A stretch of DNA of 64,000 nt from Thermoanaerobacterium aotearoense. GTDB taxonomy: Bacteria > Bacillota > Thermoanaerobacteria > Thermoanaerobacterales > Thermoanaerobacteraceae. Positions 9,419 to 59,179 of this stretch are shown here, piece by piece. Both the position numbers and the translations under genes were made by a program. Location of the stretch: NCBI RefSeq assembly GCF_009905255.1, contig NZ_CP047602.1:1364001-1428000 (forward strand), read 5' to 3'. Every line of letters begins with the position of its first letter. Positions within the stretch are counted from its first letter, which is position 1. The notes under the pieces are model-generated. The model saw only the letters and a list, made by a program, of their open reading frames with translations. It had not been told where the DNA came from and did no database searches.

Positions 9419-9883
9419 ATGGGAAAAAGAGTCAAAAAGTCGGCACGTGTATATTATTTAAGCTTCGACAATATAGTCGCCTTTTTTGTCATATTGGGCT
9501 TTTTAACTATGGTAGTGACTCAAGTATTAATGTTAAATGATAACATTAGGGTTTTTTTAAATTCCACAGAAAAAATCGAAGGTATAAACATAAATACATA
9601 TCTATCAAATGATGGAACTTTGGAATTGGAATTAATTAATTTGGATAAGGCACCAAAAGCTTTTATATTAATAAACGGAGATCCAAAGTATAGCTTTAAG
9701 GAGAAAAAATTAAAAATTAACATAAAACAAGGCGATCTTATTGAAATGGATGGAACAAACTACAATCAAACATTGTATGTTAAAGTGATTGATTCAAGCG
9801 ACAATGTAATAGAACCACAGAGGACAGCAGTTATAAAAGTCAACGGCGATATAGAAGTCATTGGTAGAGTAAGATTGAGATGA
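9419..9883 (+). CDS. Small single-pass membrane protein, unknown function
   Basis: A 154-residue protein I do not recognise. A basic N-terminus (GKRVKKSAR) precedes one hydrophobic segment at about residues 18-40 (DNIVAFFVILGFLTMVVTQV), so it is probably anchored with the C-terminal 110 residues outside. That part is beta-rich and polar (KAFILINGDPKYSFKEKK), like a small Ig-like or carbohydrate-type domain, but no family can be named. It has a strong AAGGAGG site and lies 67 bp before the aroH-cmk ribosome-binding site. Confidence 0.7.
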   Translation: MGKRVKKSARVYYLSFDNIVAFFVILGFLTMVVTQVLMLNDNIRVFLNSTEKIEGININTYLSNDGTLELELINLDKAPKAFILINGDPKYSFKEKKLKINIKQGDLIEMDGTNYNQTLYVKVIDSSDNVIEPQRTAVIKVNGDIEVIGRVRLR

Positions 9884-25585: not shown

Positions 25586-26872
25586 TTAGATTTTGATGAA
25601 TCCTTTCTCTATCATATTGTTTATAGCAATCATAAGGCTAAGCTTTACTTGGTAATACGATAAACCACCCTGTACATAAGCTGTATATGGTTTCCTAATA
25701 GGAGCATCAGCACTTAATTCAATAGATGAACCTTGAATAAACCCACCTGCAGCCATAATGACTTGATCATCGTATCCTGGCATATCCCATGGTTCAGGAA
25801 CCACATGTGAATCGACAGGAGAACCTTTCTGAATGCTCTGAATGAAAGTGATCAACTCTTCTTTTGTTTTAAATCTAATTGCCTGCACAATATCTGTTCT
25901 TAATTCATTGAATTTTGGCAAAACTTCGTAGCCCAACATTTCCATTATTTTAGCCAAAATTATAGCTCCTTTTAGTGCATTGCCAACAACCAAAGGTGAA
26001 AAAAATAATCCTTCTAACGTTAAACGATTTGTATTCAGTGTAGGCCCCACCTTCTTCCCTATTCCAGGTGCAAATAATCTGTATGCCGCTTTTTCAACAA
26101 GCTCTTTCTTTCCTGCAACATAACCACCTGTAGGAGATAGCCCACCTCCAGGATTTTTTATCAGAGAGCCTGCAATCAGATCTGCTCCAACATCTGTTGG
26201 TTCCAAATCCTCTGTAAATTCTCCATAACAATTATCTACAAATACAATTATATCTCTCTTTTTGTCTTTCAATTTTTTAATCACAAATTCAATATCGTTA
26301 ATAGAAAGCGAATACCTAAAGTCATATCCTTTTGATCTTTGTATCATAACCATTTTGGTTTTACTTGTAACTTCGCCTATAAGTTTTTCAACGTCGATTT
26401 TTCCGTTTTTTAAAAGAGGGACTTCTTTGTATATAATTCCTAAATCTGTGAGAGAACCATTGTTGCTATTGCTTCCCTTCCCTATTATATCAATAAGAGT
26501 ATCATATGGTGTTCCACAAGCCGATATTAGCTCATCATTTGGTCTTAATACACCATAAAGACATAGAGATATGGCATGTGTTCCAGAAACTATTTGAGGC
26601 CTTACTAAAGCGTCTTGTGCGTTAAATATGTCAGAATATATTTTTTCTATTGTATCTCTTCCTATGTCGCCATAACCATATCCGGTTGTTCCATTAAAAT
26701 GTATATCGCTTAAATGATTCTTTTGCATTGCATACAATACTTTGTATTGATTTTTTTCTACGATCTTATCAACTTTTTTAAACTCATCTTTGACGTCATT
26801 TTCTGCTTTTTCAAGCAAAAAAATAACATCTTTAGAGATGTTAAACTTTTCTTCAAGTATGTTTCCCGACAT
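25586..26872 (-). CDS. ynbB: PLP-dependent lyase of the methionine gamma-lyase/YnbB (aluminium resistance) family
   Basis: A 428-residue fold-type I PLP enzyme of the YnbB/COG4100 family. The cofactor lysine is expected at Lys181 in QRSKGYDFR, and PTGGYVAGKKELVEKAAYRL and FIQGSSIELSADAP are typical of the family. Biochemical role is poorly known (C-S lyase activity proposed). In Bacillus it sits in spoVK-ynbA-ynbB; here it follows spoVK by 4 bp with ynbA (hflX) missing. The frame extends to 26905, but GAGAGGA at 26881-26887 supports ATG 26872. Confidence 0.87.
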   Translation of the reverse strand: MSGNILEEKFNISKDVIFLLEKAENDVKDEFKKVDKIVEKNQYKVLYAMQKNHLSDIHFNGTTGYGYGDIGRDTIEKIYSDIFNAQDALVRPQIVSGTHAISLCLYGVLRPNDELISACGTPYDTLIDIIGKGSNSNNGSLTDLGIIYKEVPLLKNGKIDVEKLIGEVTSKTKMVMIQRSKGYDFRYSLSINDIEFVIKKLKDKKRDIIVFVDNCYGEFTEDLEPTDVGADLIAGSLIKNPGGGLSPTGGYVAGKKELVEKAAYRLFAPGIGKKVGPTLNTNRLTLEGLFFSPLVVGNALKGAIILAKIMEMLGYEVLPKFNELRTDIVQAIRFKTKEELITFIQSIQKGSPVDSHVVPEPWDMPGYDDQVIMAAGGFIQGSSIELSADAPIRKPYTAYVQGGLSYYQVKLSLMIAINNMIEKGFIKI

Positions 26873-26876
26873 ATTC

Positions 26877-27767
26877 TCAATCCTCTCTAATATCAATAGA
26901 ATCAATTATCATCAAATCATCTTTTGTTATTGTTTTTTTATTTATTATCCTCACAGCTTGTTTTCTTATAGCTCTTTCAATTATGTTTCTAACCAATCTC
27001 GCATTTCCTATTTCTCTTGTAGTATTGTCATTAATTAAAACTTTCATTATTTTTCTTTTTGCGCTGTCTGTTAGTACATATTGCCTATTCTTCGTCATTA
27101 ATTCTGCAATCCGCAACAACTCATCTATAGTGTAGTCAGGAAAATCAATTTGTATAGGAAATCTAGATCTTAAACCTGGGTTGGTGTTTAGAAAATATTC
27201 CATTTCATCTCTATAACCCGCCAAAATCAAGACAAACTGATCTTTGTAATCTTCCATTGCTTTGACTAAAGTATCAATCGCTTCTTTGCCAAAGTCCTTT
27301 TCTCCACCTCTGGCCAATGAATAAGCTTCATCGACAAATAATATTCCACCTAATGCTTTTTTTACATTTTCTTGTACCCTATGAGCCGTATGCCCTATGT
27401 ATTCGCCAACTAAATCGGCTCTTTCTACTTCTACCACGTGCCCTTTGTTAAGGACTCCAATGCCTTTCAGAAGTTTACCCAATATTCTTGCAACGGTTGT
27501 CTTCCCAGTGCCAGGATTTCCCTTAAACACCATATGTAAAACTATTGGATCCGTCACTAATCCTGCATTTTTTCTCTTAATTTGAACCTGCTCTAAAGCA
27601 TATAATTCATTTATTATTTGTTTTACTTTGTTAAGGCCGATTAAAGAGTTTAATTCTTTTAATGCTTCTATCTCAAGGCTTTTATCTCTTTCTATATTTT
27701 TATTGTCATCAGATTTTGCTTTTTTGTCAATCTTATAATTTTCAAAGTTTACAGACCATATACTCAT
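26877..27767 (-). CDS. spoVK: Stage V sporulation protein K (AAA+ ATPase)
   Basis: AAA+ ATPase of the CbbX/SpoVK family needed for spore maturation in Bacillus. The 296-residue protein has a Walker A GNPGTGKT (83-90), Walker B ILFVDEAYSLARGG, sensor LAGYRDEMEYFL and the arginine-finger region NPGLRSRFP. The frame is open to 27788 but homologues begin near MSIWSVN, so ATG 27767 is chosen; the ribosome site is weak (GGGATGTGA) and lies inside an inverted repeat. A sigma-E-like promoter lies just upstream. Confidence 0.9.
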   Translation of the reverse strand: MSIWSVNFENYKIDKKAKSDDNKNIERDKSLEIEALKELNSLIGLNKVKQIINELYALEQVQIKRKNAGLVTDPIVLHMVFKGNPGTGKTTVARILGKLLKGIGVLNKGHVVEVERADLVGEYIGHTAHRVQENVKKALGGILFVDEAYSLARGGEKDFGKEAIDTLVKAMEDYKDQFVLILAGYRDEMEYFLNTNPGLRSRFPIQIDFPDYTIDELLRIAELMTKNRQYVLTDSAKRKIMKVLINDNTTREIGNARLVRNIIERAIRKQAVRIINKKTITKDDLMIIDSIDIRED

Positions 27768-27772
27768 GATAA

Positions 27773-27826
27773 TCACATCCCAATACATTGTTTTCGCTAA
27801 TACTATCTTATGATATTGGGATGTGA
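27773..27826 (-). repeat. 13-bp inverted repeat covering the spoVK ribosome-binding region
   Basis: 27773-27785 and 27814-27826 are exact inverted repeats separated by 28 nt. The downstream arm contains the likely Shine-Dalgarno of spoVK; the upstream arm lies between the -35 and -10 of the sigma-E-like promoter. Only RNA reading through from asnS would contain both arms. Confidence 0.75.
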
Positions 27827-27833
27827 AATGTTC
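27805..27833 (-). promoter_or_regulatory. Candidate sigma-E promoter of spoVK
   Basis: On the - strand GAACATT (27833-27827), 14-nt spacer, CATAAGAT (27812-27805) resemble the Bacillus sigma-E consensus (kmATATT, N14-15, CATAcAnT) with about one mismatch in each box region. Mother-cell expression of spoVK makes this plausible. By-eye call. Confidence 0.45.
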
Positions 27834-27843
27834 ATACTGTTTA

Positions 27844-29139
27844 TTATGGGCGAATTCTGGACAGCGTTCTTGGAAATGGTATGCATTCTCTCACATGTTC
27901 TGTATTAGTTATCCATGCGACTGTTCTCTCTATACCAAGTCCGAACCCGGAATGTGGCACTGTGCCATATTTTCTCAAATCAAGATACCAATTGTACATA
28001 TCAATAGGTAAATTTTCTTCTTTCAGTCTCTTTAACAACAAATCATAATCATGAATACGCTGACTACCTCCAATAATCTCACCATAGCCTTCAGGCGCAA
28101 GCAAATCTGCACATAGCACTACTTCAGGTCTATCTTCTTTCGGCTGCATGTAAAAGGCTTTGCATTCAGCAGGGTATTCAGTTATGAAGACAGGTTTATC
28201 AAATTGATTTGACAAGAATGTCTCGTCTGGTGAACCCAAGTCATTACCCCACTGGATCTCATAACCATTTTTATTCAAAAGTTCAATTGCTTCATCATAT
28301 GTCAAGCGTGGAAAAGGAGTTTTGATTTTTTCCAGCTTACTTAGATCCCTTCCAAGTTCTTTTAATTCCCTTGAACAGTTTTCTAATACAGATTGAACTA
28401 TGTATTCCACCAACTTTTCTTGAACTTCCATATTGCCATAATGATCGACAAAAGCCATTTCAGGTTCAACCATCCAGAACTCATTTAAGTGCCTTCTCGT
28501 TTTTGATTTCTCAGCTCTAAATGTTGGTCCAAAGCTGTACACCTTACCAAATGCCATGGCAGCAGCTTCTTGATACAACTGGCCAGTTTGCGAAAGATAA
28601 GCATTTTCGCCAAAATAATCTATTTGAAAAAGATCCGAAGTTCCCTCGCAAGTAGATGGTGTTATGATTGGTGAGTCAATTCTCACAAAATCATTGTTAT
28701 TTAAAAATTCCTGTATTGCCCTTATTACTTCATGGCGAACAGACAAAATTGCCTGCTGTCTTGGTGTTCTGATCCAAAGGTGTCTATTGTCTAATAAAAA
28801 ATCTATTCCATGTTCTTTTAATGAAATGGGATAATCATTAAAAGCCATTTGTACTAAATCTACATTTTTGATTGTAAGTTCAAAACCGAATGGAGATCTT
28901 TCATCTTTTCTCACAATTCCAGAAACCGATATAGAAGACTCCTGTGTCAGTTTGTCGCAAAGTTCAAAGACATTTTCGTCTACTTCGTTTTTTACAACTA
29001 TGCCCTGAACAAATCCAGATCCATCACGGATTATTAAAAATTTAATTTTCCCGCTGGATCTTTTATTGTATAGCCATCCATTAATTGTAACTTCTTCCCC
29101 CACATGATCTTTCATTTCATTTATTTTTATCAGATTCAT
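27844..29139 (-). CDS. asnS: Asparagine--tRNA ligase
   Basis: Class II aminoacyl-tRNA synthetase charging tRNA-Asn. The 431-residue protein has the N-terminal OB anticodon-binding domain ([20 protein letters not shown]), motif 2 [19 protein letters not shown] and motif 3 [13 protein letters not shown]. AsnRS rather than AspRS is supported by the short size and motif spacing. A GTG at 29157 opens the frame, but GGAGG at 29147-29151 fits ATG 29139. Only about 40 bp separate it from purB, with no T-box leader. Confidence 0.94.
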
Positions 29140-29179
29140 ATTTACGCCTCCTATCACGTAAATTATAACATAATTATTT

Positions 29180-54170: not shown

Positions 54171-54881
54171 CTATTTTAGAACATTCGAAACGTTAGTTAT
54201 TTCATAACCTTTGCTTTCCAATTCTTTGATCATAGTAGGCAGTGCTTCTACAGTACCTTTTGTTGGATGCATCAAAACGATAGCGCCATTATGAGCTTTC
54301 TTTACAACTCTATCTATAATATTGTTAACACCAGGATTGCTCCAGTCTATAGTATCTAAACTCCATAAGATTACTTTATATCCAAGATCTTCAGCAGTTT
54401 TTACCACATCATCATTAAAGTCACCGTATGGTGGAGCAAAAAGATTAGGTTTTTTCCCAGTTATTTTAAAAAGCACATCACCTGCTTTTGAAATATCTTC
54501 AGAATATTTATCTTTGCTCCACTGCGTATACTTAACGTGTGTATACCCATGGCTTGCTATCTCATGACCGTCTTTTGCTATCTGCTTGACTATTTCTGGA
54601 TTCTTTTCTGCCCATTGTCCCTCAAAAAAGAATGTTATCCTTATGTTGTTTGATTTAAATATTTCTAACATTTTTGGAATATATTCATTACCCCACGCTA
54701 CGTTGCAAGCAAAAGCTATCTTTTTACTGTTTGCATCGCCTTTATAAATAGGATCATTTGTTTTAAACGTAGAAATGGAATGATTAATCAACATCCCTAA
54801 CAAAATTATCGCAATAATTAATATTAAAATCAATATTATGGTAGTTTTTTTAGGATATTTTATATAATATATCTTCAACAC
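54171..54881 (-). CDS. ylxY: YlxY-like sporulation polysaccharide deacetylase-family protein
   Basis: Membrane-anchored NodB-fold protein of about 236 residues. Basic start, one membrane segment (about 12-34), then the NodB domain with ITFFFEGQWAEKNPEI, HEIASHGYTH (zinc histidines), APPYGDFND and ILWSLDTIDW. The usual catalytic TFDDG is replaced by FACNVAWG, so the first Asp is missing; activity may be altered or lost. Located between pnp and the M16 gene as in Bacillus. GTG 54881 follows AGGTGG; GTG 54890/54887 and TTG 54878 are alternatives. A possible sigma-E promoter upstream is too weak to list. Confidence 0.87.
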   Translation of the reverse strand: MLKIYYIKYPKKTTIILILILIIAIILLGMLINHSISTFKTNDPIYKGDANSKKIAFACNVAWGNEYIPKMLEIFKSNNIRITFFFEGQWAEKNPEIVKQIAKDGHEIASHGYTHVKYTQWSKDKYSEDISKAGDVLFKITGKKPNLFAPPYGDFNDDVVKTAEDLGYKVILWSLDTIDWSNPGVNNIIDRVVKKAHNGAIVLMHPTKGTVEALPTMIKELESKGYEITNVSNVLK

Positions 54882-57694: not shown

Positions 57695-59179
57695 TTATAT
57701 GACTTTTAGTTCACTTAAGCATTTGTATCTGAGTATTTCCCTTATCGCTTTTCGACTGTTTGTCATTGCGCAACCTTCAAACGGCATACCGCCTCTTTGT
57801 ATGTGATATGCCTTAGCTTTTTTCTGTTTTTTGTTTACATCAGCTGCTGATAGTTTTATTTCTTCTTTTATCTCTGCTAATTTTTCTTCTGAAATTGTTA
57901 CATTAAAATATGCTTCTACAACACTATTAAGTTTTCCACTTGTCTTTAAGGCTAATATCTTTGCTAAATTATTTGCCCCTTTTTCTGTCCAACTCATTTT
58001 ACCTGCATTCATTCTGTTTGCTAATATATCAAATATATTGTTTTCCATTGTCCCTAAATGTTTGTATTCTATTCCTTCTGGGGCTTCTGGTATTTTTATT
58101 TCTTCTCTCTTTTGGTATGGTGTTATCCCTTCTTTATTGGCTACTAAATAGTTATATAGTTTTTCTAGTTTTTCCTTCTGCTTTTCATCATCTTTTTGCT
58201 CTATTATCAATTTTGTTATGTATTCTAGACTTTCTTCCGCTTTTCCTTCATCTAGCATTTTTATTAATTTGTGAGCATCTTTTTTGTCCTCTACATTCTT
58301 TATTACTGCTTGGCTTTTATGAAATGGATCTAATTGAAAATATACTCCTTCTTCGCCTAAACTTTCTTTAATCCAACTTGCTCCATCTCCATTTATTATC
58401 TTTATTTCTATTTCGTCTACGTTGTATTCTTTTGCTATCGTTGCATCTACTAATTCTTTAAATTCTTTACTGCTTGCAAATCCCGCACATGCTATTTTGT
58501 TATGTGTTATATATTCATCACTTCCTGGGCTTCTTTTTACCCATCCATCATATGCTACTGCTAATTTTATTTCTTTCTTTCCTCTGCTTTTTTTGCCTTT
58601 TGGTCTATCTTTGCCTTGCATTGATAACCATAATCCATCCATTTCTTGAAATAATATTTTTGTTTCTTTTTTTCCATTTAACTTGTTTTCTTTGAATAGT
58701 TTTATATCTCGCTTTTCTAATTCTGCTATTTTTTCTCCAACTTTTTGTATTATATTCCATGCAGTTGTATGGCTAATGCTTTGATTTGTTAATGATTCTA
58801 TATTTTTTGCTGCTTCTCTATATGGCATTTCCGTTACATTTTCTACAACTTTTTCAATAAGATTTGTTGATATATGGCCTATTGTATCCACGTTTAAATA
58901 TTCATCTAAAAGATAAACATATTCTTTTTTTCCTTCACTATTTATATGTTCATAAATTCTTTTATCAAATTCAACAGTACCCATAATTGTCTTTATGTTT
59001 GTGTGCTTTTTACCTTTACATCTATATTCTTTTTTGTCCCTTTTTTCTAGTAGCATATCATCTATTTCCATAAGGATTTGAGCCATTATATTACAAGCTT
59101 TTTCGCATGCTAATCTATAAATTTCTACTTCTAAATCCTTGAAATTTATTTCATTTTCATTTAAACTTATATTTAGCAT
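57695..59179 (-). CDS. ISLre2-family transposase (UPF0236-like)
   Basis: A 494-residue full-length transposase of the ISLre2 group. Recognised by VEIYRLACEKACNIMAQIL, MGTVEFDKRIYEH, VTEMPYREAAKNIESLTNQ, FQEMDGLWLSMQGKDR (acidic catalytic candidate), KLAVAYDGW, GDGASWIKESLG and FQLDPFHKSQA (acidic, with a histidine close by). The middle is lysine/glutamate-rich. GAGGTGAT precedes ATG 59179. The frame has no break, so the element may be active. Confidence 0.92.
   Translation of the reverse strand: MLNISLNENEINFKDLEVEIYRLACEKACNIMAQILMEIDDMLLEKRDKKEYRCKGKKHTNIKTIMGTVEFDKRIYEHINSEGKKEYVYLLDEYLNVDTIGHISTNLIEKVVENVTEMPYREAAKNIESLTNQSISHTTAWNIIQKVGEKIAELEKRDIKLFKENKLNGKKETKILFQEMDGLWLSMQGKDRPKGKKSRGKKEIKLAVAYDGWVKRSPGSDEYITHNKIACAGFASSKEFKELVDATIAKEYNVDEIEIKIINGDGASWIKESLGEEGVYFQLDPFHKSQAVIKNVEDKKDAHKLIKMLDEGKAEESLEYITKLIIEQKDDEKQKEKLEKLYNYLVANKEGITPYQKREEIKIPEAPEGIEYKHLGTMENNIFDILANRMNAGKMSWTEKGANNLAKILALKTSGKLNSVVEAYFNVTISEEKLAEIKEEIKLSAADVNKKQKKAKAYHIQRGGMPFEGCAMTNSRKAIREILRYKCLSELKVI

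Follow-up and report, generated by a model that had tools for sequence, protein, structure and literature searches.

A short inverted repeat ahead of spoVK in Thermoanaerobacterium aotearoense probably forms a cis-acting leader, the predicted function of which is to leave read-through spoVK RNA untranslatable while the RNA made in sporulation stays open. In this model, the fate of the message would be set by the place where transcription began. RNA entering from upstream, out of asnS in this genome and purB in others, would bear both arms of a hairpin, and arm 1, being made first, would seize the Shine-Dalgarno sequence on its emergence, so that spoVK would go untranslated from the long RNA. 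RNA from the spoVK sporulation promoter would begin in the hairpin loop, without arm 1, and its Shine-Dalgarno sequence would remain open. SpoVK would in this way be restricted to the sporulating mother cell without the need for a terminator and, unlike with a terminator, the downstream gene of the Met_gamma_lyase family could still be readable from the long RNA. It is the start of transcription, the read-through, the translational block and the benefit to the cell that we infer here.

Organization of the spoVK junction

The window, by which we mean the whole stretch of DNA analyzed (64 kb), contains the following features around the hairpin.

26877..27767, minus strand: spoVK, 296 aa, ATG start at 27767 (TIGR02881, 424.1 bits against a cutoff of 422.95)
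27844..29157, minus strand: asnS, co-directional and upstream of spoVK; open reading frame as listed, ATG start at 29142, stop codon ending at 27844
25586..26872, minus strand: co-directional Met_gamma_lyase-family gene downstream of spoVK (frame L081:210-1526)
27814..27826, minus strand: hairpin 5′ arm (arm 1), TCACATCCCAATA, anti-Shine-Dalgarno-like, occupying the spacer of the putative sporulation promoter
27773..27785, minus strand: hairpin 3′ arm (arm 2), TATTGGGATGTGA, the exact complement of TCACATCCCAATA, carrying the spoVK Shine-Dalgarno sequence
27786..27813, minus strand: hairpin loop, 28 nt, housing the -10-like box and the predicted transcription start
27827..27833, minus strand: -35-like GAACATT, a sigma-E-type box preceding arm 1
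27804..27812, minus strand: -10-like CATAAGATA; CATAAAATA or CATAGAATA in relatives, CATANNNTA in 20/20
27796..27799, minus strand: predicted transcription start region, about 6-8 nt past the -10
27772..27780, minus strand: Shine-Dalgarno GGATGTGAT, an 8/9 match to GGAGGTGAT, which we take to be the complement of the 16S 3′ end (anti-Shine-Dalgarno)

SpoVK has AAA and AAA_lid_6 domains, and a preprint (PMC10659427) reports it as a mother-cell chaperone that activates MurG in sporulation. Its correct start is the ATG at 27767, while an in-frame ATG at 27788, which heads the listed open reading frame, is absent from L082 and L086-L100; TTATC sits between arm 2 and the codon at 27767. Upstream, asnS encodes asparagine--tRNA ligase (NF003037, 600.8 bits, cutoff 414), and the Met_gamma_lyase gene has a likely ATG start at 26872, its Shine-Dalgarno sequence, AGAGAGGA, being read from the sequence within the end of spoVK.

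The original prediction described exact 13-bp repeats at 27773-27785 and 27814-27826, the first of them including the spoVK Shine-Dalgarno sequence. A repeat search recovered precisely this pair (13 nt, 100% complementary, arms 28 nt apart), and GGATGTGAT at 27772-27780 does overlap the arm as described. The second arm was said to lie between the -35 and -10 elements of a sigma-E-like promoter; it fills the spacer, the 14-nt sigma-E-type spacer being exactly arm 1 plus one base, and the sigma-E label has to be amended, as sigma-K fits alike. GAACATT matches what we take to be the sigma-E -35 consensus, KMATATT, at 6/7 positions, and AC-N17-CATANNNTA agrees with the presumed sigma-K promoter consensus, the AC at 27830-27831 lying 17 nt before CATA and being invariant in the family alignment together with the -10 core. 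The putative promoter thus appears to match both consensus sequences equally, the two being inseparable. A sigma-A reading (TTCACA/TAGTAT at 27827-27800, 9/12) was dropped, TAGTAT being lost in relatives. In PMC517825, B. subtilis spoVK is described as transcribed from one sigma-E and one sigma-K promoter and, in profiling, as almost completely SpoIIID-dependent.

The inverted repeat and its predicted folding

Between 27500 and 28100, the 13-bp spoVK pair is the sole inverted repeat of at least 12 nt listed. Exact repeats of at least 13 bp with loops of 3-60 nt number 8 in the window, where 30 dinucleotide shuffles averaged 0.2; with a loop of at least 20 nt, only the spoVK repeat is found, against a shuffle mean of 0.1 per window, and at about 1 in 10 per window its own sequence is no more than suggestive. 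RNA folding of 27750-27844 gave -24.1 kcal/mol (z -2.98), with 1/200 shuffles equally good. We judge the hairpin to be real because it is conserved in 20/20 genomes of the family, which goes beyond the statistics of the bare repeat. At spoVK no U-run of the kind that marks an intrinsic terminator follows the stem after 27773, and an Rfam scan of the window, covering riboswitch and thermometer models, gave 0 matches at gathering scores. A reading of the element as a dispersed repeat family was rejected: its 17-mer occurs exactly once in the genome, at spoVK itself, with one further site at 2 mismatches and 14 at 3, and the reversed control pattern gave 6 in total.

Bare-RNA predictions for the 20 family genomes, made at 37, 60, and 65°C, set read-through RNA against RNA begun at the predicted start. 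Across these genomes and the range of 37-65°C, the unpaired value of the Shine-Dalgarno sequence was 0-0.03 in simulated read-through RNA and rose to 0.41-0.93 when transcription was taken to begin at the predicted start, which lends good support to the earlier suggestion that read-through RNA would fold and RNA begun at the sigma-E promoter would be open. The window's own spoVK RNA gave the lowest open value of all, 0.41 at 37°C, where its Shine-Dalgarno sequence would be no more than partly open; at 60-65°C it gave 0.53-0.64. Hairpin energies at 60°C are -8.4 to -15.1 kcal/mol in 19/20 genomes and -4.5 kcal/mol in G009 (L092), and a sporulation-type -10-like box lies inside the loop in 20/20. 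The Shine-Dalgarno sequence is therefore predicted by these models to be sequestered in the helix of the longer RNA, as would be expected of a leader silenced by read-through.

Conservation of the helix within the family

Both spoVK and the hairpin were found in 20/20 genomes of the GTDB family, all of which retain at least 12 of the 13 pairs when G.U is counted; the genomes are related, and 20/20 does not equal 20 independent events. In the family alignment (A1; 20 rows, 17 distinct), pairing holds in 99.1% of 221 cells, against 28-48% in a control in which one side was slid. Eight pairs are invariant, three show a one-sided change, one a two-sided change, and one departs. Across the 17 distinct rows the outer pair reads U-A in 8, C-G in 8, and U-G in 1; three inner pairs have one change each, in every case an arm-1 C that faces G turned into U, and the sole lost pair, in 2 rows, is the loop-proximal one. 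A shuffle control reached one two-sided pair in 229/500 cases, so that this count is not unusual, while the percentage paired was reached in 2/500 and the two-sided cells in 0/500. Both arms are nearly invariant in the alignment while the loop, 22-31 nt long among the family genomes, and the sequence ahead of the -35 diverged. Between families it is the pairing of the helix, not its sequence, that is conserved; within the family, the two-sided support comes from one pair. The best named match to the protein is SpoVK of T. saccharolyticum NTOU1, at 99% identity.

Neighboring genes and terminators

The gene upstream of spoVK is asnS in 9/9 Thermoanaerobacterium loci and 0/11 other family loci (tblastn). 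purB (Lyase_1, ADSL_C) takes its place in the Thermoanaerobacter-type loci L090 and L096, in G009 (L092) and in the f3 loci L107 and L108, a chemotaxis receptor gene does so in f2, and hfq in L055 and L018. Because the hairpin persists while the upstream gene changes, the device belongs to spoVK and travels with it. The proposal that asnS supplies the read-through therefore stands as to the identity of the gene, while asnS itself is incidental, purB being upstream in other loci.

The seven f1 and f3 loci looked at here have their upstream gene 68-76 nt away and co-directional with spoVK in 7/7, and no terminator was found between it and spoVK in 7/7, within a scan of 23 loci. Eight other scanned loci do have a terminator (L101, L055, L060, L048, L017, L018, L031, and L022). 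In L055, L060, L048, and L018 an intrinsic-terminator-like stem stands ahead of the hairpin, so that read-through there would be small; in f2, which is without the hairpin, L101 has a terminator-like stem and L102 a stem without a T-run. A co-directional Met_gamma_lyase gene lies downstream of spoVK in 6/7 loci (Pfam), and hflX in the Paenibacillus locus. The gene order, together with the absence of a terminator, would permit a longer RNA from an upstream promoter.

spoVK loci of other lineages

In a cross-lineage test, a locus passed when at most 1% of 300 shuffles gave as strong a stem between the Shine-Dalgarno sequence and the 86 nt upstream, and the flanking genes of the same loci, with 100 shuffles, served as the control. 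L001-L009, duplicate genome copies, were excluded, and start codons were picked by the best Shine-Dalgarno sequence, a fallible choice, with L094, L095, and L100 set by pattern. Genera were sorted into Desulfotomaculum-type and other groups according to their presumed affiliation. All 20/20 family loci pass (control 0/22), as do 2/2 f3 loci (control 0/2) and 7/12 Desulfotomaculum-type loci of named genera (control 0/42). The two genomes of f2 give 0/2 (control 0/2), the Paenibacillaceae 1/27 (control 4/109), and other spoVK loci 4/38 (control 1/121). The spoVK hairpin is common in certain lineages, while elsewhere it is missing or unproven, and as many lineages fail the test it is not required by spoVK as such.

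The f3 loci, which belong to another family of the same order, carry independent versions of the stem, both unlike that of the Thermoanaerobacterium family: 17 pairs in L107 (GCCACTTTTTTGCATAT/ATATGTAAAGAGGTGGC) and 15 in L108 (built on GCCTCTTTGCATAT), with 0/100 shuffles as strong in either case. As in the family, both have the Shine-Dalgarno sequence in the 3′ arm and a CATA box ending arm 1. Judged by eye, other lineages too have -10-like boxes past arm 1. At 13/16 loci, which were chosen by sense pairing, pairing is better on the sense strand than on the antisense strand.

Alternative explanations

It is improbable that the hairpin serves the asnS or purB mRNA as a 3′-end stabilizer, a processing site or a weak terminator. 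Its position directly past the upstream stop codon would suit such a role, and the spoIID-like and pdaB-like stems described below have a T-run and are terminator-like, their 3′ arm doubling as Shine-Dalgarno sequence; the spoVK stem, however, is without a T-run, no terminator was detected at the junction, the hairpin remains with spoVK when the upstream gene differs, and the 3′ arm is the Shine-Dalgarno sequence in f1 and f3 loci alike. The near invariance of both arms within the family, and the SpoIIID dependence of B. subtilis spoVK in the profiling of PMC517825, could instead point to a DNA operator through which SpoIIID or another dimer would control the promoter. We consider this a little less probable again: the spacing of the arms is not fixed, and its range of 22-31 nt would upset helical phasing, the one-sided changes preserve G.U pairs of the sense RNA, the arms of other lineages are unrelated in sequence yet retain complementarity to the Shine-Dalgarno sequence, and the better pairing of the sense strand, in loci selected for it, points the same way.

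The start of spoVK transcription is a prediction, and B. subtilis sigG has, according to PMC5942855, a hairpin over its ribosome-binding site within the native transcript. Were the native spoVK RNA likewise to start before arm 1, the hairpin would be a conditional switch, opened in sporulation by temperature, an RNA-binding protein or a small RNA. This is very improbable, given that the sporulation-type -10 lies in the loop throughout the family, with similar boxes past arm 1 elsewhere by eye; moreover, folding predictions leave the helix intact at 60-65°C, and temperature would therefore not open it, and no Rfam family reached its gathering score in the window. Least credible of all, to the point of being negligible, is a chance repeat retained through common descent. 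Such a repeat with its loop is expected about 0.1 times per window, and many of the pairs (8/13) are invariant, but the arms were kept while the loop and the stretch ahead of the -35 diverged, unrelated stems occur in f3 and Desulfotomaculum-type loci, and 0/22 flanking genes of the family loci show a stem.

Similar leaders across the genome

Gene starts were ranked by stem energy over 1.664 Mb (62%) of the genome, 1307 starts in two samples from this one genome: the window with L130-L169 (sample 1, 673 starts), where the class was first seen, and L263-L302 (sample 2, 634 starts), used as a repeat. The five strongest stems precede the genes for an unknown protein (L140), SpoIIM, SpoVK (third of 1307), a YNCE-like propeller and an M23 peptidase, and ranks 6-10 are PdaB-like, SpoIIP, SpoIID-like, YunB, and SpoIIQ-like, a sporulation family being the best match in 7/10. 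The scores of SpoIIM, SpoVK, SpoIIP, and YunB exceed the respective NCBIfam cutoffs; the SpoIID-like protein clears the SpoIID/LytB domain model and fails the equivalog, and the best matches to PdaB and SpoIIQ are under cutoff, SpoIIQ far under (81.9 vs 250 bits). Flanked by a methylglyoxal-synthase-type gene and an M50 peptidase gene, the M23 gene occupies what we take to be the place of spoIVFA. The gene in L140 (L140:1287-1802, plus strand) encodes a 172-aa protein without a family match, present in 9/20 family genomes, all of them Thermoanaerobacterium.

Sporulation families are the best match for 9/31 annotated top starts, 21 from sample 1 (including spoVK) and 10 from sample 2, against 0/30 random starts (Fisher p 0.0012); sample 2 alone, with 2/10 against 0/10, is a weak repeat. 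Two of the 23 top distinct starts in sample 1, a probable spurious rRNA frame and a lexA-like gene, were left unannotated. The random sets comprised the first 20 of 40 drawn starts in sample 1 and ten in sample 2, where 9/10 were annotated at 1e-5 and the tenth is HydG with a clear match, giving 0 sporulation genes; 6/30 random starts are without an NCBIfam match. Beyond the top ten, the sporulation best matches are a second PdaB/YlxY-like gene and YlbJ, and non-sporulation genes also stand near the top (ParA, oleate hydratase, a radical-SAM gene, transposases, and others). A sigma-E/K-like -10 (CATANN[AT]T at -70 to -20) accompanies 6/16 of the strongest stems against 84/1291 other starts (p 0.0004; p 0.002-0.0035 at three other cut-offs). 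Within the top ten it is found in four, SpoIIM, SpoVK, the propeller gene and YunB, and the remaining six would have to be served by promoters of other types. Having a co-directional gene upstream does not mark the class significantly (16/16 strongest stems vs 1041/1249 overall, p 0.054).

Several further stems were seen in passing. A PdaB/YlxY-like gene downstream of pnp (window 54174-54878, minus strand) has a stem hiding its Shine-Dalgarno sequence that is kept in most scored relatives. The strong Shine-Dalgarno stem of an ISLre2-type transposase (window 57698-59179, minus strand), which has a near-identical start at L163:4495, is probably a case of insertion-sequence fold-back control. A 154-aa open reading frame without a Pfam or NCBIfam match (window 9419-9880, plus strand) has a Shine-Dalgarno stem enclosing CATAAAATA, and is possibly an unnamed sporulation gene. 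The Shine-Dalgarno stems of the spoIID-like gene at L165:17756 and the pdaB-like gene at L155:15845, both on the minus strand, run into a T-run before the start codon and may combine a terminator and a ribosome-site lock in one element.

Conservation and setting of the other leaders

The spoIIP leader stem is found in 19/20 family genomes at -19.7 kcal/mol or better, that of spoIID in 16/18 scored family loci at -15.8 kcal/mol or better, and those of pdaB and its paralogues in 20/22 at -14.1 kcal/mol or better, several paralogues reaching a z of only about -2; the stem of the L140 gene is kept in 8/8 scored. L209, L229, L248, L249, and L262 were omitted from this scoring, and L207 is without a usable start. 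In G003 (L208) the spoIID-like frame is split by an internal stop into two overlapping matches. The spoIIQ stem occurs in 9/9 Thermoanaerobacterium and 1/9 scored Thermoanaerobacter-type genomes and is absent in G009, the Thermoanaerobacter-type genomes having instead, by eye, a terminator-like stem ahead of the promoter. With at most 2 of 200 shuffles as strong as the criterion, yunB has the stem in 20/24 loci of the order (family 18/20, f2 2/2, f3 0/2) and spoIIM in 19/24 (family 19/20, f2 and f3 0/4); a CATAAAAT or CATAAATT box lies at or just past the end of arm 1 in most loci of both.

By Pfam, the upstream genes are an ABC transporter gene before the L140 gene, a HAD hydrolase gene before pdaB and mutS2 before yunB; a methylglyoxal-synthase-type gene precedes the M23 gene and pnp the pdaB-like gene of the window, HU lies 354 nt before spoIID, and the gene before spoIIM is without a Pfam match. 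Since the neighbors upstream of spoIIP and spoIIQ are themselves of sporulation type (gpr and a SpoIID-domain gene, respectively), the purpose of these two stems may be to separate two sporulation programs, not growth from sporulation.

On balance we favor the view that a substantial share of the sporulation regulon in the Thermoanaerobacterales is insulated at the level of translation, not termination, each gene with its own sequence-unrelated stem. The set would cover spoVK, spoIIM, spoIIP, yunB, the spoIID-, spoIIQ-, and pdaB-like genes and, by position, spoIVFA. These genes follow co-directional genes, several of them housekeeping, such as asnS or purB, mutS2, pnp, the methylglyoxal-synthase-type gene and the HAD hydrolase gene, and with the 5′ arm preceding the sporulation start any read-through RNA would be silent. 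Many encode wall enzymes or their partners, possibly harmful in growing cells.

Relation to known systems and significance

In the IS10 and IS200 transposases, read-through RNA conceals the start site (fold-back inhibition). The start at spoVK would likewise be hidden by read-through, and IS200- and ISLre2-type transposases also stand high in our genome scan; unlike the spoVK leader, however, fold-back belongs to mobile elements and protects from activation by neighbors. The long undecoded isoform of yeast NDC80 is reportedly another 5′-extended RNA that is made and yields no protein, and is said to work through upstream reading frames and chromatin, without a hairpin. A closer likeness in a sporulation gene is B. 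subtilis sigG (spoIIIG), for which a read-through hairpin of the same design is proposed in PMC5942855. The gene, the sigma factor and the upstream gene are all different there and the sequence is unrelated; moreover, the read-through of sigG comes from another sporulation operon, whereas that of spoVK would come from a housekeeping gene. The same design is found in phage T4 gene e (also soc, 49, and I-TevI), and is the one predicted at spoVK. According to PMC3014915, the long early RNA of gene e sequesters the start site and lysozyme synthesis from it is 100-fold less, while the late-promoter RNA, without the 5′ strand, is well translated. Gene e is not homologous to spoVK and serves a phage time program, not cell differentiation. 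A partial literature search, in which sigG and T4 surfaced, found no published report of a hairpin for spoVK or of such hairpins as a sporulation class; the leader design is already known, and its apparently wide use in sporulation was not found in print.

If our model is true, the cell silences a developmental gene while RNA polymerase runs across it, which would be relevant to compact genomes, with their leaky terminators and with housekeeping operons lying among the spore genes. Should the class prove real, RNA-seq would overstate the protein output of sporulation genes during growth in these bacteria, and the stems would guide a search for developmental genes, together with their promoters, from sequence alone. 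The question of how spore wall enzymes are kept silent in growing cells would then become testable with reporters.
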